NCBI GenBank assembly: GCA_029309925.1
Contig: JARKND010000001.1
Location: 1,798,001-1,862,000, forward strand
Direction: 5' to 3'
Source of the DNA: Fulvivirgaceae bacterium JP3-4
GTDB lineage: Bacteria > Bacteroidota > Bacteroidia > Cytophagales > Cyclobacteriaceae
DNA: 64,000 bases
Shown: positions 30,918-39,759 of the stretch, piece after piece
How positions within the stretch are numbered: position 1 is the first letter of the stretch
How the letters are laid out: every line of letters starts with the position of its first letter
Position numbers and translations under genes: made by a program
The notes under the pieces: model-generated
What the model was told of the DNA's origin: nothing
Databases searched by the model: none
Seen by the model: only the letters and a program-made list of their open reading frames with translations

Positions 30918-33900
30918 ATGCAATCAGAAACCGAAAGATCAGTAAGCCCGTTGCGGCAGCGCATTGTGACTAAGATGGCGGTGGCCCATCAGCTTGATGC
31001 ACTAGTCGAACGGATGCGTTTGAACGCAACTCGATCACTATCGGGAATTCTCGTGTCTGGTTACAGCGGTACGGGGAAAACACTTTTAATTGAAGGTTAC
31101 CTGCAGGGACTGGAAGCGACACACCCAGTACTGATCGCCCGTCACCATCAGCAGCACCAGACCATACCTTACTTCGGTTTTAAGTATTGCATCTCGGATT
31201 ATCTGAGCAAAATTTACAATCAGTCGAGCAAGACAGAACTCCAGGATTTTTCAGACAAACTTAAAGAACATCTTGGTGAGAGTTTCCCCTTGCTGATCGA
31301 CTACATACCGGAGTTATCGCTCATTTTTGGCCGCGAGCTTTCGGTGCCGGTGCACGCGAACCTGGCAATCGAAAACCAGTTGTATCCACTATTCAGACGT
31401 TTCTTTGAGTTTCTGGCAGATTTCTACGGGCGCCCGGTATTTTTATTCACGGATGACCTCCAGTGGATCGATGCATCTGGCATCAATCTGCTCAAGTACT
31501 TGTTGCTGAATGTTCCTCATCAAAAGCTGATATGGATCGGTGCGTGCCGTGCACCTCAAAACAAAATCAGTCTTGTAGGTCAGCTGATGGATGAACTTCG
31601 CCTGCAGGAAAGGCACATTGAAAATTTGCTGTTGACAGGATTTACCCGCGAGGAAGTTCAAAATTTTATGGAGCTGACACTGGGGGGAAAATGCGATGTT
31701 GAACTCGTCAGTATATGCGCGAAGCTTACTGATGGAAACCCGTCTCACTTGCAGGCGCTCCTTGAGAATCTGAGAAACAGCGATCTCATCTGGCGGCAGA
31801 ATGAAGTTTTGTATTGTGACGCGCTGGCCGTGCGGACCCAATATGAAGGAAAGAATCCGCAGAATATGCAACTCTGGCAATTGCAAAAGCTTTCTGCTGC
31901 AGCCTATGAAGTATTGTGCACCATAGCCTGTCTTGGACGTTTTAACAGACAGATCGTTCTTGACTGGCTGAATGGCGACATTGTTGTCATGAAGGCATTG
32001 CTGGATGAGTCGATAGAGGCAGGTTTGCTTGAGGCAAATGATCAGGATGTGCGCTTTTCGGAAATTCATATAGGTGAGATCATTTACAATCAGCTTACGG
32101 AAGAACGTAAAGTCGAGCTGCACTATAAGATTGCCAACCTTTTCTACGGGCGCGGACTCGACCGCCTCAGCAGCACCGACATTATTCTGCTCGCAACAAG
32201 TTTTAATCAGTCGATTAAAAAGGTAAAGGCTGACGATCGCCTTCAACTTGCTGCGGAACTCAATTACCGCGCAGGAAAGATATTACAAAATGACAAAGCG
32301 TATGATCAGGCGCGCTATTTCCTCAAGATGAGTGCAGAAATGCTGAAAGAGTGCCGGTGGGAAGACGTAAGCCAGCAGGTATGGCTGGTGTATATGGATC
32401 GGGCACGTATCGAATATCAGCTCGGAGAGTACGACCTTGCCGAAATTCATCTTGATTACCTGCTTGGGCGTATATCCGATCCGTTAAAGCGCTCAAAGGT
32501 TTTTGAGTTGAAAGTGACAATTAACAATCACCTTGCCAGGTATCAGAAGGTTGTATGGATCCTTCGTGAAAGTCTTGGGGAGCTTGGACTCGAATTGCCA
32601 CTGGATGAACAACACCTGCAGTCTGAAGTCAGACGTTTAAAAGTTATTCTTGCGCAGCAGGAGTCTGGTCCCGAGAGTGCAGGCGCGGCACAACAGTCAG
32701 ATCCTGAAAAGTCCGAAGCTATTTTACGTTTGCTGTATGTTGGTGGAATGAGTTTGCACCACACGTCCGATGTGCTGATGACGTGGGCAGCGCTGCAGAT
32801 CATTTTGAGCGCCAATCGCGAAAAGCCTTCCGTTGTTAAGGCGATTGGTTATGTTTCATATGGCAGGATGCTCATCATTTCGGGAGACATTGAAAAGGGC
32901 TATGAGTATGGGACGAAAGGTCTCGCCATCAACAAGTCGCTCGATGATATCAGCCTTAGATGCCGTGTATTCGGTGTGTATGCTTTTTATATCCAGCCAT
33001 GGATGAAGGATTTTTCGAAGAGCGCTCCGTTGCTGGAAGAAGCTGCACAGGCAGGGCAAAAGGCAGGTGACCTCATTGGGATCTATATTCTCAAGACACA
33101 TCAGCTGAACCTTCATCTCATCTCAGGACTTCCACTGAAAGGATTGTCGCGCTGGGATTTTGGTGAGTCGTATCCGGGGATGGAGCTTACTTACTACATT
33201 ACCCATTACCAGAAAAGTCTGATTCGGTTTTTAACAGGTGAAGCTTCGGAGTTTTCTATTCCACGGCAAAATCCATCATCGCTTGCAGGCCGACTGACGA
33301 TTCAGGAAGAAAAGTTTTACAGGAATTATGTCTGGGGAAGGTATTATTTTCTCTTTGGACACTATGAGCTTGCAGCACGAGCAGCGGAAGAAGCACACGC
33401 AAACCGGAAACTACAGGAAGCTTCACCCTTGCTCACGGCAAATCTCACAATCTGGTTCTTATCCGTGGCGCAAAACTGGTACGGTTATCCTGACTCAACC
33501 CGAAGAGAACTATTACCACGGGTTTCAGACGTACTGAAATCCTTTGAGTTGTGGAAAGATTATGCACCTTCAAACTACCTCGCGCCATGGCTGCTGATGA
33601 AGGCTGAATGGAGCCGCATCTCAGGGAATGACGATGAAGCGCTCGCATATTTTCAAAAGTCGTTTGAGGCATCGGGTGCAAATATTTACCACCGCGCTGT
33701 GTCGAGTGAGCTGTGGGCTAAGTTTTTATTGAGTCGTAATTCGCAGGACGCGCGTGCGAGGATACTGCTGTTGAGTTCCATCGATGCTTTCGATCAGTGG
33801 GATGCTGTTGCGAAGAGCAAGCAACTCCGGCAGCAGTTCGAGGCTGTTCTTTCCGGAGATAGCAATTACACTCAGACCATCGATATTGAAACGATTCAGT

Positions 33901-35066
33901 ACGAATTGAGTGGTGATATGGAGGTGCGCTCTCTGGTGAAAAAACTAATGGTGCTCCTGCTGCGCATTTCAGGTTCAACACATGCCGCAGTGGAGTTGCT
34001 CGAAGATGCCGGTGACCGTATCTGGTATGATGAGCTTTCGCTTCTCCATGATGCATCGGAAAAGCTGCCTTCCGTTCCCAAGTCGATGATCCTGATGGCG
34101 CTCAAAGCGCAAAACGTTGTGGTTGTCAATGAACTTAGATCCGAACTTGGGTTGCGTGATATCGAAGTGCTCCAGGCCAAAGGGGTACAATCATTTCTCA
34201 TTTTGCCCATCACAATCAGCGGACACCTGTCGGTCGTCATCTATCTTGAAAACGTATTCGCGAAGTACTGGTATGTGCCCGAGCGACTCAAAGCTGTCAA
34301 GATTGCGGCCAACCAGGGCGCAGTGATGATCGAAAACGCACGCATCCACGAACACTCTGTCAGACTGAACGAAGAGATCAGAAAAGAAATGGCAGAGAAG
34401 GAACGGCTTTCATCTCTTATCGAAGCGCAGAAGGATGCGCACATGAAGGCGCTGATGCAGGCGCAGCACAATGAGCGGAAGCGGATTGCTGGTGATCTGC
34501 ATGATAGCCTCGGTTCATTGCTTTCAAGCGTACGCCTCCGCTTCAACGGCCTGCAAAATGATTTCCTTGACAAGGTTCCTGAAAAGAGTCAGCGGTTTGA
34601 CGACAGCCTCAAATTGCTCGATGAAGCCATTGATGAGCTTCGGCAAATAGCCCACACGATGGTCCCTGTTTCATTGAGTCGTTTCGGATTGCGTGCTGCG
34701 CTCGAGTCATTTGTTGAACAGGTAAGTGCATCCGGTGAACTGCATGTGGATCTGCAGATTCTTGGACTGGACAGACGTCTCGCGGAAGAAATGGAAGTTC
34801 GCGTTTATCGCATCTGTCAGGAACTCGTGCAAAATGTTATCAAGCATGCACAGGCGACCACGCTGCGGATCCAGCTCATTCTTCATAATGACTCGCTTAA
34901 TATCATGGTGGAAGACAACGGCATCGGCCTGCGAAAAGAAACACTCGCGCGCGGATTCGGTTTTAGCACAATTCAATCAAATGTGGACCTTTTCAAGGGG
35001 AGCTTTGACATTGAAAGCCAGCCGGGCAAGGGATGTCTTGTACTGATCGATCTTCCTTTGGGTTGA
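30918..35066 (+). CDS. Large AAA-TPR-GAF-histidine kinase (HisKA_3) signalling protein
   Basis: The 1382-residue soluble protein starts with an AAA_16/STAND-like ATPase: Walker A GYSGTGKT (48-55) and Walker B 'VFLFTDDLQWID' near 174. A long helical TPR-like region (about 400-960), a GAF domain (about 1000-1145), a coiled coil and a NarX-type kinase follow, with 'ERKRIAGDLHDSLGSLLSSV' (phosphoacceptor His near 1195) and ATPase boxes 'ELVQNVIKHAQ' and 'EDNGIGLRKE'. It resembles the C-terminal two thirds of trifunctional Ser/Thr-kinase/ATPase/histidine kinases but lacks the protein-kinase domain. Unusually for this phylum it has a strong Shine-Dalgarno (GGAGG, 30906-30910). The NarL-type regulator at 19083 is a plausible partner. 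Confidence 0.93.
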   Translation: MQSETERSVSPLRQRIVTKMAVAHQLDALVERMRLNATRSLSGILVSGYSGTGKTLLIEGYLQGLEATHPVLIARHHQQHQTIPYFGFKYCISDYLSKIYNQSSKTELQDFSDKLKEHLGESFPLLIDYIPELSLIFGRELSVPVHANLAIENQLYPLFRRFFEFLADFYGRPVFLFTDDLQWIDASGINLLKYLLLNVPHQKLIWIGACRAPQNKISLVGQLMDELRLQERHIENLLLTGFTREEVQNFMELTLGGKCDVELVSICAKLTDGNPSHLQALLENLRNSDLIWRQNEVLYCDALAVRTQYEGKNPQNMQLWQLQKLSAAAYEVLCTIACLGRFNRQIVLDWLNGDIVVMKALLDESIEAGLLEANDQDVRFSEIHIGEIIYNQLTEERKVELHYKIANLFYGRGLDRLSSTDIILLATSFNQSIKKVKADDRLQLAAELNYRAGKILQNDKAYDQARYFLKMSAEMLKECRWEDVSQQVWLVYMDRARIEYQLGEYDLAEIHLDYLLGRISDPLKRSKVFELKVTINNHLARYQKVVWILRESLGELGLELPLDEQHLQSEVRRLKVILAQQESGPESAGAAQQSDPEKSEAILRLLYVGGMSLHHTSDVLMTWAALQIILSANREKPSVVKAIGYVSYGRMLIISGDIEKGYEYGTKGLAINKSLDDISLRCRVFGVYAFYIQPWMKDFSKSAPLLEEAAQAGQKAGDLIGIYILKTHQLNLHLISGLPLKGLSRWDFGESYPGMELTYYITHYQKSLIRFLTGEASEFSIPRQNPSSLAGRLTIQEEKFYRNYVWGRYYFLFGHYELAARAAEEAHANRKLQEASPLLTANLTIWFLSVAQNWYGYPDSTRRELLPRVSDVLKSFELWKDYAPSNYLAPWLLMKAEWSRISGNDDEALAYFQKSFEASGANIYHRAVSSELWAKFLLSRNSQDARARILLLSSIDAFDQWDAVAKSKQLRQQFEAVLSGDSNYTQTIDIETIQYELSGDMEVRSLVKKLMVLLLRISGSTHAAVELLEDAGDRIWYDELSLLHDASEKLPSVPKSMILMALKAQNVVVVNELRSELGLRDIEVLQAKGVQSFLILPITISGHLSVVIYLENVFAKYWYVPERLKAVKIAANQGAVMIENARIHEHSVRLNEEIRKEMAEKERLSSLIEAQKDAHMKALMQAQHNERKRIAGDLHDSLGSLLSSVRLRFNGLQNDFLDKVPEKSQRFDDSLKLLDEAIDELRQIAHTMVPVSLSRFGLRAALESFVEQVSASGELHVDLQILGLDRRLAEEMEVRVYRICQELVQNVIKHAQATTLRIQLILHNDSLNIMVEDNGIGLRKETLARGFGFSTIQSNVDLFKGSFDIESQPGKGCLVLIDLPLG

Positions 35067-35072
35067 GGCAAG

Positions 35073-35783
35073 TCACTTTGCGATCGCATACATGCAAAGA
35101 ATCCCTGTGGCGAACGCGATTCCAAAACTTAGCAAAGTCCCGATAAGGATATACTCCGTTAGCTTGAGGTCATTGGATTCTTTCAAGTCTCCAAACCGGA
35201 AGATCGACTTGGCTGCGATAAGAAAACCAATTCCTTCCCAGTGTTGCGTCACGACAAATACGAATACAAACAATCTTTCAAGGATTCCGATGAATTTGCC
35301 GGCATTCTCCAGTGAATCTGCACTTGGATGATCAGACGTTGGCGTCCATCGCGAGATCGTGTTTTTAACGATCACCGAAGTGGGTGTTGTCAGAAAGACG
35401 AGGCCGGTGATGATCAGGAGTATGTTAGGATCATTGAGCGAATCGATGTCGATGACAGGTGATTCCATCCAATACCAGACTGCACCAATCACCGTCAGGT
35501 GCAGCGTTTGATCCACCGCAAACCAGAGCCGTTTGGTGCTTTTTTTCTGCAGGGATACCTTCATGCCATCGATGATGAGGTGAGTAACCACGATGGTGAG
35601 TCCACCGATAATGAACGACCTGTCAGCTACGAAGATGACGAGCAGGACAGCATGTATCAGTACATGTACATAGAGCTGCCACGCTTTAAGTTTTCGCTGC
35701 TCCTTTTCTTTCACCCAGCGGGAAGGTTGTAGCACAAAATCGCCCAGCAGGTGGACAAGGATGAGTTTAAGTAACAGTGGCAT
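35073..35783 (-). CDS. DUF3307 integral membrane protein
   Basis: The 236-residue protein has about six membrane segments and the DUF3307 N-terminal signature 'LLKLILVHLLGDFVLQPSRW', followed by 'HVLIHAVLLVIF' and 'VVTHLIIDGMKV'. His and Asp residues repeated on membrane helices suggest metal or proton handling, but no activity is established. The gene is downstream of and overlaps satD by one base (TAATG), so translation is coupled. DUF3307 and SatD are often neighbours, which implies a shared function. The gene converges on the large sensor kinase with only 6 bp between the stops. Confidence 0.9.
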   Translation of the reverse strand: MPLLLKLILVHLLGDFVLQPSRWVKEKEQRKLKAWQLYVHVLIHAVLLVIFVADRSFIIGGLTIVVTHLIIDGMKVSLQKKSTKRLWFAVDQTLHLTVIGAVWYWMESPVIDIDSLNDPNILLIITGLVFLTTPTSVIVKNTISRWTPTSDHPSADSLENAGKFIGILERLFVFVFVVTQHWEGIGFLIAAKSIFRFGDLKESNDLKLTEYILIGTLLSFGIAFATGILCMYAIAK

Positions 35784-36415
35784 TAGCTAAGCAATACTTT
35801 TATTTTCTTTCTATAAAACGATTCAACCTGCATGATTTCTTCATAAAAGGCTCTTTTTTTTCTTTCGCTTACTGAAGACTGACTGATCCCGAGTTTTTTT
35901 GCAAGCTTGTTTTGCCTGATGTCCGGATTGTTGCTCAGTATCTTAACCAATTCCGCAGCTCCTCGTGTCCAGTTATCCATCGGGATGAGCGAAAGCCGCA
36001 TCAGAAGATTCATTTGTTCATCGAAGTCGGGCCATGGTGTTTTGATGGCGAGGTTTTGTTTTTCCTTCTTTAAGCCTTCAAGGCGGACACCGGAATTTAC
36101 AAAGGCTTCGCCATTTGACTCCGTTATTCGTGAGGCTTTAAAATCTTTCGTGCCAATGCCGATGGCCATGCGCACATCAAGATTCTTTACGCACTTAATC
36201 GTTGCCTTGATCCGGATCGCCTCCATGAAGGCCTCATCAGGTTTCGCTATTTCGACCTGAAAACTATCTCCGCGATAGATCTCCCAGAGTTCAGGGGAAG
36301 TGCGGTCGCTGGCAGAAAGCGTTTTCTTCAGCGGCACCAGCCATTGGTTTGAATTTTTCATACCACGCGACCTGATTAAATCACCAGTGATTACACTTGT
36401 CAGTTTCTTTGCCAT
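35783..36415 (-). CDS. SatD family protein with C-terminal HTH
   Basis: The start is set at the ATG at 36415 (210 residues, 'MAKKLTSVITGDLIRSRGM'); an upstream TTG at 36433 is less likely because it abuts the operator array. The first half has the SatD pattern 'VITGDLIRSR', 'EIYRGDSFQVEI' and 'RMAIGIGTKDF', resembling a nucleotide-cyclase-like alpha/beta fold. The last 60 residues form an HTH: 'QNKLAKKLGISQSSVSERKK', suited to DNA binding. Four near-perfect palindromes (36434-36561) sit directly upstream, so SatD may repress its own operon. It overlaps the DUF3307 gene by one base. The biochemical role of SatD is not established. Confidence 0.88.
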   Translation of the reverse strand: MAKKLTSVITGDLIRSRGMKNSNQWLVPLKKTLSASDRTSPELWEIYRGDSFQVEIAKPDEAFMEAIRIKATIKCVKNLDVRMAIGIGTKDFKASRITESNGEAFVNSGVRLEGLKKEKQNLAIKTPWPDFDEQMNLLMRLSLIPMDNWTRGAAELVKILSNNPDIRQNKLAKKLGISQSSVSERKKRAFYEEIMQVESFYRKKIKVLLS

Positions 36416-36433
36416 AATTTGGATGTAATTCAA

Positions 36434-36561
36434 ATATCGGGAAAAAACCCGATATATTAAAATATCGGGAAAAAACCCGATATGTTTCCTGTGGCGAGAG
36501 TATTTGTATAATTATCGGCAGAAAACCCGATAATCTAAGATATCGGGATAAAACCCGATAT
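36434..36561 (-). promoter_or_regulatory. Array of four ATATCGGG-N6-CCCGATAT palindromes (candidate SatD operators)
   Basis: Copy 1 is 36434-36455, copy 2 is 36462-36483 and copy 4 is 36540-36561. Each has 8-bp perfect arms ATATCGGG and CCCGATAT around an A-rich 6-bp spacer. Copy 3 (36511-36534) is ATTATCGG-N8-CCGATAAT. Centres are 28, 50 and 28 bp apart, so the array is two doublets of equal internal spacing. Copy 1 lies 19 bp before the satD ATG and overlaps GATATTTG, a near match to the TAnnTTTG -7 box. The divergent phosphoesterase gene starts 123 bp on the other side, so one array could control both. Confidence 0.8.
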
Positions 36562-36612
36562 TTTTCTGGCTGGGTTGCATCACGCTTGCAGCAGCGCCAT
36601 TCACCCACAAGA

Positions 36613-36631
36613 TTCACCATTTTCAGTGATG
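36613..36631 (+). promoter_or_regulatory. TCAC-N8-GTGA palindrome upstream of the phosphoesterase
   Basis: TTCACCATTTTCAGTGATG carries the symmetrical arms TCAC and GTGA. It matches the core of the two elements at 19713 and 22306 (ATCACYRTTTTCRGGGATG) at most positions and lies 53 bp before the phosphoesterase ATG. It may be a site for the same regulator. Confidence 0.35.
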
Positions 36632-36683
36632 CTTTTTATGTTTCGTATCATCAACTTGCTCAAATAAATTCCAGGGAATCTCT

Positions 36684-37727
36684 ATGAATCATGCTACGCG
36701 CAGACGCACCTTTGTTAAGCAAATCGCAGGAGCTACCGGACTCGCGCTGCTCGGGCCTTCGGCTACCTTTGCGGCCACCGCTGCGAAGAAGGGCGGATCC
36801 TTTTCCTTTGTTCATCTCACTGACATGCACGTCAGAAGAAAGCGCCAGGGACATCTCGGGTACGAGGCATGTGTATCTGATGTAAATAAGAATCATCCAA
36901 AAGCCGATTTTGTGCTTATGGGCGGAGACCTTGCCTTTGATGGGAATTATACAGCCAAGGATGAGTTTATCGACCAGATCGATCTTTACAAAAGCGTCTC
37001 TGACAAACTGAAGATGCCGTATTATAATTCGATTGGCAACCATGATGTTTTAGGCTGGAGTTCTCGGAGAAAGGTTGCAGCAGACGATCCCGACCTGGGC
37101 AAGAAGCTGATCATGGATAAACTTGGCATGAAGGAAAGCTATTACAGCTTCAATCATAAAGGATGGCACTTTGTGGTGCTCGATTCTATCCATCCGATTG
37201 AGACGGAGCATGGCATCAGTTATAAAGGACGTCTTGGCGAGCAGCAGCTTGAGTGGCTGAGGTTTGACCTTGGCAGGAATGCGGGTATGCCCACCGTTGT
37301 GATGACGCATATTGCTGCGTTCTGTCACCTGGGACAGATGAATGGCGATCCGAAGTTCAATCCATTTGGCCATATGGTGATTGAAGACACTGTAGCTTTC
37401 CGGACGATCATCGAGCGTCACAACGTAAAGGCCGTTTTGCAGGGCCATAGCCATGTGCCTGAAGACTTTTACTACAACGGAATCTGGTATATCACGAGTC
37501 AGTCCGTCAGCGCTGCCTGGTGGGGCGGCAACTGGAAGGGATTCAAGCCAGGATACAGCGTATTCCACACGGATGGCGAAAACCTGCGATGGGAGCGAAG
37601 AACTTTCGAATGGCAGCACCAGCTTGAGCCGGAGGACAATCTTGAACGGCAAAGGATCGCTGAGCGCGAGGCTTTCGACCGCCAGCAGGCGGAGTTGCGT
37701 TCGCAGGAGATCAGCGCAGGCCGATAG
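36684..37727 (+). CDS. Tat-exported calcineurin-like metallophosphoesterase
   Basis: The 347-residue protein opens with a twin-arginine signal: 'RRRTFVKQ' (residues 6-13), a hydrophobic core and an Ala-rich cleavage region near residue 33. All metal-binding blocks of the calcineurin fold are present: 'LTDMHV' (Asp47, His49), 'MGGDLAFDG' near 80, 'SIGNHDVLG' near 114, 'VMTHIA' and 'LQGHSHV'. Tat export fits a metalloenzyme folded with its ions in the cytoplasm. The C-terminal 40 residues are charged and helical ('EPEDNLERQRIAEREAFDRQ'). The gene is divergent from satD and convergent with the TIGR03915 gene (2-bp gap). Substrate unknown; related proteins hydrolyse phosphodiesters or nucleotides. 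Confidence 0.93.
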   Translation: MNHATRRRTFVKQIAGATGLALLGPSATFAATAAKKGGSFSFVHLTDMHVRRKRQGHLGYEACVSDVNKNHPKADFVLMGGDLAFDGNYTAKDEFIDQIDLYKSVSDKLKMPYYNSIGNHDVLGWSSRRKVAADDPDLGKKLIMDKLGMKESYYSFNHKGWHFVVLDSIHPIETEHGISYKGRLGEQQLEWLRFDLGRNAGMPTVVMTHIAAFCHLGQMNGDPKFNPFGHMVIEDTVAFRTIIERHNVKAVLQGHSHVPEDFYYNGIWYITSQSVSAAWWGGNWKGFKPGYSVFHTDGENLRWERRTFEWQHQLEPEDNLERQRIAEREAFDRQQAELRSQEISAGR

Positions 37728-37729
37728 CA

Positions 37730-38506
37730 TCACCATTCGCGTTTTTCGGTGAGATACCGCCAGTAACGGGTTGGGACATGTCGTACATGTAACTTCTGAT
37801 TCTTGCGCGAGCCGATGTTGACGCTGTGAAAGTAACCTTTCCACAATTTCTGGTACTCGATCTCTTCGTCATGGACAAGGTGGGCCGGAAGAAATTCTCC
37901 CTGCGCTTCATCAGCCAGATCAATCAGGACTTCCGAAACTTTGCGCGACTTGCAGTCATATTGCGCTCCGTACTTTCTTTTTCTGTCAAAGATAAGCCAA
38001 TCCTGATCGGCATACCGGTCTCTGAAATGACTCACGATCAATGGTAACACATTGAAGTCGGGAATAATACTGGCGAAATACAATCCGTCTTTTGTCCGCT
38101 GGAACCTTACAAAGGCCTCCATCCGGTGTTTCTCGCGATGAACTTTGTGTGCTATCTGTGACACTGCGAGAACAGCCGGATGTCCGATGTCGTTTTCGAT
38201 CTTGCCTTTGCTTGCAAAAGCATGCCGGATGAAATCGGAGAGTACCTGCTCGATCTGCGGTAGCTCGGACAAAAAGCTTTTATAGATCTCGTGACACTTT
38301 GTGCGAGACAGGTGTTTGTGCAGGCCACTCCACACGCGTGCAGCTTTGGTGGGATCGGTACCGATATCAATCGCTTCGCACAGTAACGAAGGATGATAGT
38401 GCTGCATTCTGACAATTGAAAAATTCGCGAGTTTGCGATCATACACTTCAAAAATGCATGACAAAAACCCGTCAAACGTTCCATCATAGCGAAGCAGAAC
38501 AGTCAT
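37730..38506 (-). CDS. TIGR03915 family DNA-metabolism protein (DUF4130)
   Basis: The 258-residue protein begins 'LLRYDGTFDGFLSCIFEVYD' (from residue 4), the characteristic start of TIGR03915/DUF4130 proteins, and continues with 'ARVWSGLHKHLS', 'HKVHREKHRMEAFVRFQRTK' and 'RYADQDWLIFDRKRKYG'. The family almost always accompanies a TIGR03916 radical SAM protein, and in other bacteria it is fused to a uracil-DNA-glycosylase-like domain, hence the tentative link to DNA repair. Here no glycosylase domain is present. Its start overlaps the radical SAM stop by 4 bp, so the two are translationally coupled. The reaction is unknown. Confidence 0.92.
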   Translation of the reverse strand: MTVLLRYDGTFDGFLSCIFEVYDRKLANFSIVRMQHYHPSLLCEAIDIGTDPTKAARVWSGLHKHLSRTKCHEIYKSFLSELPQIEQVLSDFIRHAFASKGKIENDIGHPAVLAVSQIAHKVHREKHRMEAFVRFQRTKDGLYFASIIPDFNVLPLIVSHFRDRYADQDWLIFDRKRKYGAQYDCKSRKVSEVLIDLADEAQGEFLPAHLVHDEEIEYQKLWKGYFHSVNIGSRKNQKLHVRHVPTRYWRYLTEKREW

Positions 38507-39759
38507 GCAAACAAAGGCAGTTGTTGAACATCGTTGATGGCATATTTGCTTTGTCCTGCCAGTGTATGCCGAAGTACAATCGGATCTACATCACGAGGGA
38601 AAGTATCCATACGGTCGCAGACAATAAAATGCTTTGCCTTGTTAAATGAAATTCCAAATCGTTTTAACTCATCCCAGCCCAGTCTTCTGAATTTGCGTGC
38701 CTTCACGATTTTCAGTGCGGATGAAACACCAACACCGGGCACGCGAAGAATTTGTTCATATGCGGCCGTATTGACATCGATGGGAAATGCATGTGGATTC
38801 CGCAGGGCCCAGGCTAACTTTGGATCGATATCAAGGTCAAGGTTGGGTCTTGACGGATCAATTATTTCATCGATGGAAAAATGATAGAATCGCATCAGCC
38901 AGTCTGCCTGATACAAACGATTTTCACGGATCAGTGGAACAGGCGTGCCGATCTGCGGGAGGCGGTTATCGCGGCTGATGGGAACATACCCGGAATAGTA
39001 GACTCGCTTGAGCGAAAATTTTCTGTATAACGAATCGGCTACGCGCATGATGTCAAAATCATTTTCCGGACTTGCTCCGACAACCATCTGGGTGCTTTGG
39101 CCTGCCGGGGCGAATGCCGGAAGTGCAGGCGAAAGTTTGCGTTCATTACTGACAGCTGAGATCTGCTCACTGAGGAAACCCATCGGCCGGACGATATCGT
39201 TGTGATTTTTTTCGGGGGCGAATTTTCTGAGACTTGATTCAGTAGGCATCTCAATGTTGACGCTGACACGATCTGCATATTGTGCAGCGTCCCGCATCAG
39301 GTCATCAGTGCAGCCCGGGATTGTTTTAATATGAATGTATCCGTTGAAGTTGTGTTCGGTCCGTAATTTTCGCGCAACACGCACCAGGCGCTCCATCGTG
39401 AAGTCGGCATTCTTAAAAATGCCAGAGCTGAGAAAGAGGCCCTCGATGTAGTTTCTCCGATAAAAATGGATGGTGAGATCAACTACCTCCTGTACGGTAA
39501 AGGCCGCGCGTTTTATGTCATTGCTTCTTCGTGATACGCAATAGAGACAATCGTAAATGCAATAATTGGTCAATAGTATTTTCAAGAGAGACACACAGCG
39601 TCCATCTTCTGTATAGGTATGACAGATCCCCGATGCAGTCGTATTTCCAATCCCCTTCGTCTTGTTTGACCGTTTACTGCCACTCGATGAACAAGAAACA
39701 TCATATTTTGCAGCATCGGCCAGAATTTCAAGTTTTTCCCTTACGCGATCCCAATTCAC
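38503..39759 (-). CDS. TIGR03916 putative DNA modification/repair radical SAM protein
   Basis: The start is a GTG at 39759, giving 'VNWDRVREKLEILADAAKYD', the usual family N-terminus; no ATG is suitably placed. The 418-residue enzyme has the radical SAM cluster motif Cys67-x3-Cys71-x2-Cys74 ('NYCIYDCLYC'), a conserved 'GLFLSSGIFKNADFTMERLV' block and a C-terminal helix-hairpin-helix ('RVPGVGVSSALKIVKARKF', about 345-363) that would bind DNA. It forms an operon with TIGR03915. The family is predicted to repair or modify DNA, but its lesion or product is not known. A palindrome AACTAAT-AGA-ATTAGTT 23 bp upstream may be its operator. Confidence 0.93.
   Translation of the reverse strand: MNWDRVREKLEILADAAKYDVSCSSSGSKRSNKTKGIGNTTASGICHTYTEDGRCVSLLKILLTNYCIYDCLYCVSRRSNDIKRAAFTVQEVVDLTIHFYRRNYIEGLFLSSGIFKNADFTMERLVRVARKLRTEHNFNGYIHIKTIPGCTDDLMRDAAQYADRVSVNIEMPTESSLRKFAPEKNHNDIVRPMGFLSEQISAVSNERKLSPALPAFAPAGQSTQMVVGASPENDFDIMRVADSLYRKFSLKRVYYSGYVPISRDNRLPQIGTPVPLIRENRLYQADWLMRFYHFSIDEIIDPSRPNLDLDIDPKLAWALRNPHAFPIDVNTAAYEQILRVPGVGVSSALKIVKARKFRRLGWDELKRFGISFNKAKHFIVCDRMDTFPRDVDPIVLRHTLAGQSKYAINDVQQLPLFA

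Follow-up and report, generated by a model that had tools for sequence, protein, structure and literature searches.

What regulates the satD gene, and could its own product do so? The question is raised by a row of palindromes in the genome of Fulvivirgaceae bacterium JP3-4, within a stretch of 64,000 nucleotides (contig JARKND010000001.1, positions 1,798,001 to 1,862,000) that is referred to here as the window. There, satD precedes the gene for a DUF3307 membrane protein, while a phosphoesterase gene is oriented divergently. An earlier note, drawn from the letters of this DNA alone, had described four palindromes in two doublets upstream of satD and had proposed that SatD binds them cooperatively to control its own operon, and possibly the phosphoesterase gene as well.

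The satD locus and its array of palindromes

SatD, a 210-aa protein encoded on the minus strand (35783-36415), combines, according to Pfam (PF16264), AlphaFold2 and Foldseek, an N-terminal cyclase/GGDEF-like palm domain with a C-terminal winged HTH. The start codon of the 236-aa DUF3307 protein (35073-35783, minus strand; PF11750, 100.8 bits, residues 3-119) overlaps the satD stop codon by one base (TAATG). The four palindromes upstream of satD are borne out by direct reading of the window sequence and are annotated, with no strand assigned, as predicted operator sites. The motif ATATCGGG-N6-CCCGATAT is found in three copies, at 36434-36455 (site 1, ATATCGGGAAAAAACCCGATAT, the nearest to satD), 36462-36483 (site 2) and 36540-36561 (site 4), for which the direct reading is joined by the pattern counts given below. 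A variant palindrome, ATTATCGGCAGAAAACCCGATAAT, with TATCGGC on one side, occupies 36511-36534, the 22-bp site of the same size being 36512-36533 (site 3). Site 1 is separated by 18 bp from the satD ATG at 36415. From start to start as well as between centres, the sites are spaced by 28, 50 and 28 bp, i.e., two doublets with equal internal spacing, exactly as had been described.

Exact matches to TATCGG-N8-CCGATA number four in the window, all within the array, and a search of the rest of the genome, which the earlier note had put forward as a check, shows these four to be the only ones in the whole 5.8 Mb. When up to two mismatches are allowed, the window contains seven matches versus a mean of 1.78 in shuffles, none of 100 of which had seven or more. 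The looser TATCG-N10-CGATA occurs at 16 genome positions, namely the four of the array and 12 scattered singletons, compared with four for a control pattern. An Rfam scan of 34000-39000 returned a single chance match (E 0.95), far under the gathering score.

As for neighbouring genes, a 1382-aa protein with AAA_16, HisKA_3 and HATPase_c matches over the cut-off, and GAF and TPR matches under it, is encoded on the plus strand at 30918-35066 and converges on the satD operon. At 37730-39759, on the minus strand, lies an overlapping pair of genes for a DUF4130 protein and for a protein of 418 aa that has a CxxxCxxC cluster and that, from this motif, we take to resemble a radical SAM enzyme.

Conservation of the array upstream of satD

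A satD gene is present in 43 of the 291 genomes of the order, and no satD match was found in two further genomes from the genus to which the window belongs. Thirty of these 43 loci were read, 13 being left out, and were combined with 80 loci from public genomes, the best ones among at least 578 relatives that a scan turned up. The resulting 110 loci contain one locus twice (L006 and L038) and seven pairs more than 95% alike; dropping L038, L042, L047, L057, L059, L080, L088 and L092 yields a set of 102 loci. The full 110, or subsets of them, were used for the original array count, the dyad complementarity, the table of classes and helices, the tree pairs, the mixed arrays, the neighbour-gene scan and the palm columns.

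At least one upstream TAT-N14-ATA dyad is found in 98 of the 102 deduplicated Bacteroidota-type loci, and two such dyads spaced by exactly 28 or 29 bp in 85 of them, loci that share ancestry; a first-order Markov model gives pairs at 28 or 29 bp in 0.1 loci on average and in one at most (50 trials). Six of the 17 loci without two strict sites at this distance belong to Tenacibaculum, which carries an AATTCG variant. More than half of the site pairs that are 20 to 60 bp apart lie at exactly 28 bp (157/299). In nine other genomes with TATCAC arrays, 23 of the 24 perfect TATCAC-N8-GTGATA sites are located at satD. The expectation that the motif would recur upstream of satD orthologues thus held in part: the array architecture is general, whereas the ATATCGGG motif is restricted to some clades, and its absence from an orthologue would have misled as a refutation of autoregulation. 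At L030, whose SatD is divergent, two TATAAG-type sites are contained in a perfect inverted repeat of 68 bases, with arms of 33 bases, located approximately 7 to 74 bp before the matched start of satD.

The two doublets of the window, with a wider gap between them (28/50/28) and located between divergent genes, could suggest that the four sites are shared by satD and the phosphoesterase gene, one doublet each. This is unlikely, and the proposed control of the phosphoesterase gene is not supported by the comparison of loci: a phosphoesterase homologue was found upstream of satD in one of the 110 loci, the window itself, and at none of the 109 others, within a search range that reached 3 kb at most, was limited to 1.5 kb at 30 loci and was shorter at a few. 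In addition, arrays of two doublets are found without a phosphoesterase at L039 (28/42/28), L050 and L056 (both 28/41/28), and on two haloarchaeal plasmids (see below). The phosphoesterase of the window itself has a partial PADLOC match to PDC-S60 (E 3.7e-5), a search in which SatD and DUF3307 were unmatched.

Arrays at distant and plasmid-borne satD genes

Distant SatD loci were taken from the best 30 matches (L115 to L144) and, with the exception of L131, where there is no SatD frame, were scanned without deduplication for tandem dyads with periods of 24 to 40. Such dyads were found at p ≤ 0.02 in 19 of the 29 loci and at p ≤ 0.05 in 21, eight loci not reaching the latter value, versus one and three, respectively, of the 29 control stretches. 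The period is 28 or 29 in 18 of the 19 loci and 27 in the remaining one, and the sequences are unrelated. The same test on 28 of the 110 main loci gave p ≤ 0.02 in 24, versus none of the 28 controls.

SatD is also encoded on plasmids. Seven of 10 records were examined, the other three being from Agrobacterium with a SatD identical to the one read, and their hosts are Halorientalis, Haloplanus, Natronosalvus, Agrobacterium, Sphingomonas, Segatella and Enterobacter. Dyads with a period of 28 or 29 were present at all seven loci (floor p 1/101) and in none of the seven controls; for L205 and L206, the tested stretch extends 60 bases beyond the annotated start. At two haloarchaeal plasmid loci with DUF3307, the array consists of two doublets spaced 29/47/29, close to the 28/50/28 of the window. 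On L206, a plasmid record of Enterobacter kobei, the SatD-DUF3307 pair is divergent, has TCAACC/GGTTGA dyads of its own and lies close to an IS3 transposase. A search of phage records with one distant SatD (L116) gave no match.

Half-site classes and the recognition helix of SatD

Half-sites fall into classes that differ by clade (TATCGG, TATCGT, TATCAC/T, TATTCC/TATGCC, TATAAG and others), and these classes correspond across loci to the sequence of the C-terminal HTH. Residues 179-184 of the recognition helix read QSSVSE in the window (35864-35881, minus strand), and two of them, 180 and 184, track the operator sequence. When the 102 loci are sorted by residues 180-181, DA or EA goes with TATyCC in 16 of 19 cases (two TATCA, one uncalled), NA with TATCA in 18 of 19, PA with TATAA in all seven, SS or ST with TATCG in 17 of 26 (three other, six uncalled Tenacibaculum), and NS or NT with TATCG in 14 of 21 (five TATCA, one other, one uncalled). 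The 10 other loci (SA in five; AA, AS, GT, PG and SN in one each) have TATAA or other half-sites. Exceptions to the helix classes include L009, L011 and L073, where QNS faces TATCA, and L084, where QNAVSK faces TATTCC.

The same residues emerge from a scan that was not targeted at the HTH. For each of 201 SatD columns, a partial correlation was computed between column identity and half-site similarity, whole-protein identity being removed; the scan carries no significance value and needs at least two called sites per locus, i.e., 102 of 110 loci in its first version and 94 of 102 after deduplication. The two best columns are 180 (partial r 0.50) and 184 (0.46) for the 94 loci, and their values are 0.54 and 0.48 for the 83 loci that remain without the TATAAG clade. 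Within the recognition helix, a single turn separates these residues; the third-ranked column is a palm residue, W44 (0.30). Independent switches were looked for on a tree built from only the palm domain; for the three traits considered, it gave two, four and one supported independent pairs, numbers too small to reach significance. In these pairs, the operator mostly shifts as expected or stays, with rare reversals in single pairings for the first trait, which agrees with a helix that would read the operator, short of independent proof.

The array could nonetheless be the target of a different regulator of the satD operon, encoded elsewhere, as the link between SatD and the sites is one of sequence and the same helix residue sometimes faces different sites (L084, L009). 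However, each genome has its sites at a single locus (one site of 24 being an exception), the two best site predictors among 201 columns belong to the recognition helix of SatD, and plasmid-borne SatDs of archaea, proteobacteria and Bacteroidota come with arrays as well, all of which makes an unlinked regulator very unlikely. Two findings lend strong support to autoregulation by SatD, as proposed in the earlier note: the array is conserved together with satD, and half-sites are coupled to residues 180 and 184. We estimate at roughly 85% the probability that the array is the cognate operator of SatD and that the operon is autoregulated.

Arrays with two classes of sites

Both TATyCC and TATC sites are found in 10 arrays among the 43 loci in which A at position 181 is preceded by D, E or N at 180, as called with a looser site definition than that of the 102-locus counts. 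In all 10, whichever the class, the sites that fit the present helix are gene-proximal; nine of these arrays are distinct, L075 and L092 being near-duplicates that were both counted. At all 20 D/E loci, the site closest to the gene belongs to the TATyCC class, and at 22 of the 23 N loci it is TATC. A second SatD was considered as a cause of mixed arrays and set aside: 10 of the 11 genomes searched, which cover nine of the 10 mixed arrays (all but L049), contain one SatD match, and the L060 genome contains a second match that is weak and partial.

We infer that the distal sites of mixed arrays are relics of an earlier specificity; on the tree, the helix trait requires a minimum of four changes. 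Mixed arrays would in this way provide a natural record of a transcription factor and its operators changing together and, with the current specificity at the proximal end and another further out, operator evolution may be readable from single genomes.

DNA sites, RNA hairpins or promoter elements

Palindromes located in a 5′ leader could also act at the RNA level, by forming hairpins or terminators, instead of serving as DNA sites. In the window, the minus-strand RNA folds with −48.4 kcal/mol versus a shuffle mean of −27.3 (z −6.2), and four terminator-like sites are found between 36300 and 36800 when 0.6 are expected. This strong fold is nevertheless explained by the palindromes, since every palindrome array folds, and it is in the complementarity of the 299 dyads that the two possibilities differ. 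Relative to shuffles within arrays, complementary pairs are in excess at positions 4/17 (260 versus a mean of 243 and a maximum of 256) and 5/16 (239 versus a mean of 225 and a maximum of 237), but not at 6/15 and further in, with 7/14 and 10/11 being below shuffles. Symmetry in excess at positions 4-5 and none at 6-10 points to a dimer on DNA and not to a hairpin, whose stem would need the inner pairs. Given also that half-sites co-vary with HTH residues, and that the period of 28-29 bp recurs in bacteria and archaea with unrelated sequences, a role of the palindromes as RNA structures is highly improbable.

Another possibility is that the period is set by the Bacteroidota promoter, the operators tiling a tandem promoter whose TTTG and TAnnTTTG, with 28-bp units, would fall into the gaps between sites and be 20 bp apart. 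TAnnTTTG has been described as the flavobacterial −7 box (PMC9723704). The pattern TTG-N17..23-TAnnTTTG is found in 33 of 102 loci, chance giving 1.45 and at most four; in 29 of the 33, the spacer is 20, and in 29 the −7 TTTG begins 0-3 nt past the end of a site. No perfect TAnnTTTG box is present in the window. Such a promoter is, however, absent from 69 of the 102 loci, and haloarchaeal and proteobacterial loci have the period of 28-29 bp too. As archaeal and proteobacterial promoters differ from those of Bacteroidota, the simplest and likelier source of the shared period is the way in which SatD itself assembles, and a period dictated by the promoter seems improbable.

The two domains of SatD and its membrane partner

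The Pfam assignment of SatD (PF16264) is close to the limit, with 30 bits for a cut-off of 29, distant members scoring up to 123.5. At the C-terminus, HTH_24 is matched with 24.5 for a cut-off of 21.9, AsnC-type and MarR models remain under theirs, and the predicted structure is helical there, at residues 151-162, 168-175 and 179-188. The AlphaFold2 model, built from a 30-sequence alignment, has a pLDDT of 96.1 and a pTM of 0.92. Its putative palm domain, approximately residues 5-125 (36041-36403, minus strand), is delimited from the model, Foldseek and the conserved columns, and contains D12 and a G49-D50-S51-F52-Q53 hairpin motif. Class III cyclases, GGDEF, Cas10-type proteins or GTP cyclohydrolase III make up 49 of the 50 listed PDB matches from Foldseek, with a best E of 1.1e-3 (none ≤0.001) and modest query TM values of 0.27-0.43 among these matches. 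A sequence search of solved structures gave 24 matches (E ≤ 1), 23 of which are SRY/SOX-type HMG boxes and were taken as chance.

D12 is kept in 108 and D50 in all of 110 SatDs, and hhalign places both on the metal aspartates of cyclases, with a probability of only 15% (E 0.0018). The hairpin reads RGDSFQ in the window SatD and LGDEFQ in most distant SatDs. In hmmscan searches, no cyclase or GGDEF family profile matched the window SatD or six distant SatDs; Guanylate_cyc domains were used in the profile comparison because the GGDEF family gave no match in 39 relatives. Class III cyclases carry a catalytic Asn/Arg pair. It is not conserved in SatD, where position 107 is mainly F, N, Y or L, 106 is I, V, Q or R, and 112 is F or L, so that nucleotide binding is likelier than cyclase activity. 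In one case (L020, genome G283), satD has a Y at the position of D12 and the adjoining DUF3307 match contains a stop codon; this pair may be decaying as a whole.

The tight coupling of the two genes extends beyond the window, the DUF3307 start overlapping the satD end by four or one bases at 73 of the 95 loci with a frame of 200-270 aa. Outside the Pfam DUF3307 domain, the membrane protein has a C-terminal membrane module (around residues 161-220; 35124-35303, minus strand) with the signature AGKxIGxLER ... AAKSxxRF ... EYxLIGTLLS. A DUF3307-type motif was detected 3′ of satD by one regular expression at 97 of 110 loci, and the C-terminal module by a second one at 106; DUF3307 is likewise found in 42 of the 43 SatD genomes of the order. 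Following distant satD genes, the module was recognized by regular expression in 18 of 30 cases and by eye in seven more, in proteins often far shorter than DUF3307's, and is unconfirmed at L120, L123, L124, L129 and L131; it is present at all seven plasmid loci. From these sequences, the C-terminal module looks like the constant partner of SatD. In 17 of 59 genomes, DUF3307 is found without a SatD match, and in 13 of these 17 the open frame has no more than 119-151 aa, which probably leaves no room for the C-terminal module. The DUF3307 model (pLDDT 88, pTM 0.63) gave no match under E 1.6 in the PDB.

A transposon meta-analysis (PMC11323703) describes satD as an accessory gene (178/249 genomes) that nonetheless scores as essential when S. 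pyogenes is screened with transposons. An accessory and essential satD, in a species that enters here by the family name, would fit a role as repressor of, or antitoxin against, a harmful partner.

A model for SatD and comparison with known systems

A SatD dimer would bind each palindrome of about 20 bp by means of the C-terminal winged HTH, whose residues 180 and 184 would read positions 4-6 of the half-site. Several dimers would sit side by side in a fixed register of 28-29 bp, a constant period that makes cooperativity plausible, and would shut the promoter of the operon for satD and the membrane protein. The palm domain, with both metal aspartates, may bind and perhaps turn over a nucleotide, which would switch DNA binding. 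These suggestions decrease in strength from repression (rather than activation) to cooperative filling, to a nucleotide ligand and finally to a harmful partner. We tentatively propose, beyond this, that SatD and the membrane module form a hitherto unrecognised nucleotide-responsive two-gene system of bacteria and archaea, also carried by plasmids, in which a GDEF-type palm protein on an array phased at 28-29 bp holds down a membrane effector that is harmful if uncontrolled, and whose arrays turn over from the gene-proximal end, leaving distal sites as fossils of earlier specificities.

In the literature on SatD or DUF3307, a scope outside of which most subscription journals lie, no earlier report of such an array at satD was found, and a search for DUF3307 by name led to a phage description. 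Across the sampled Bacteroidota branches and plasmid copies, a gene pair without known function gains a testable regulator role, for which there are now a DNA target, a pair of residues that may set specificity and a domain predicted to bind nucleotides.

Several known systems invite comparison. SatD shares its family name with SatD of the streptococcal sat locus, the comparison being one of name and of a published report (PMC11323703). Its predicted fold, with D12, D50 and a GDEF-like hairpin, recalls the palm of class III cyclases, GGDEF proteins and Cas10; unlike these, it has no Pfam match to them and no conserved Asn/Arg pair, and is fused to a winged HTH. An HTH_24 match over the cut-off and palindromic sites are reminiscent of AsnC/Lrp and MarR regulators, but SatD has no match to the AsnC ligand domain, its sites are at one locus and its half-sites vary widely by clade. 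In type II toxin-antitoxin operons, antitoxins are autoregulated. SatD differs from these by its cyclase/GGDEF-like palm and by having a membrane protein as partner. It resembles them in its patchy distribution (43/291 genomes) and plasmid copies, and in a small operon of overlapping genes whose first product has an HTH and would repress through several upstream palindromes.
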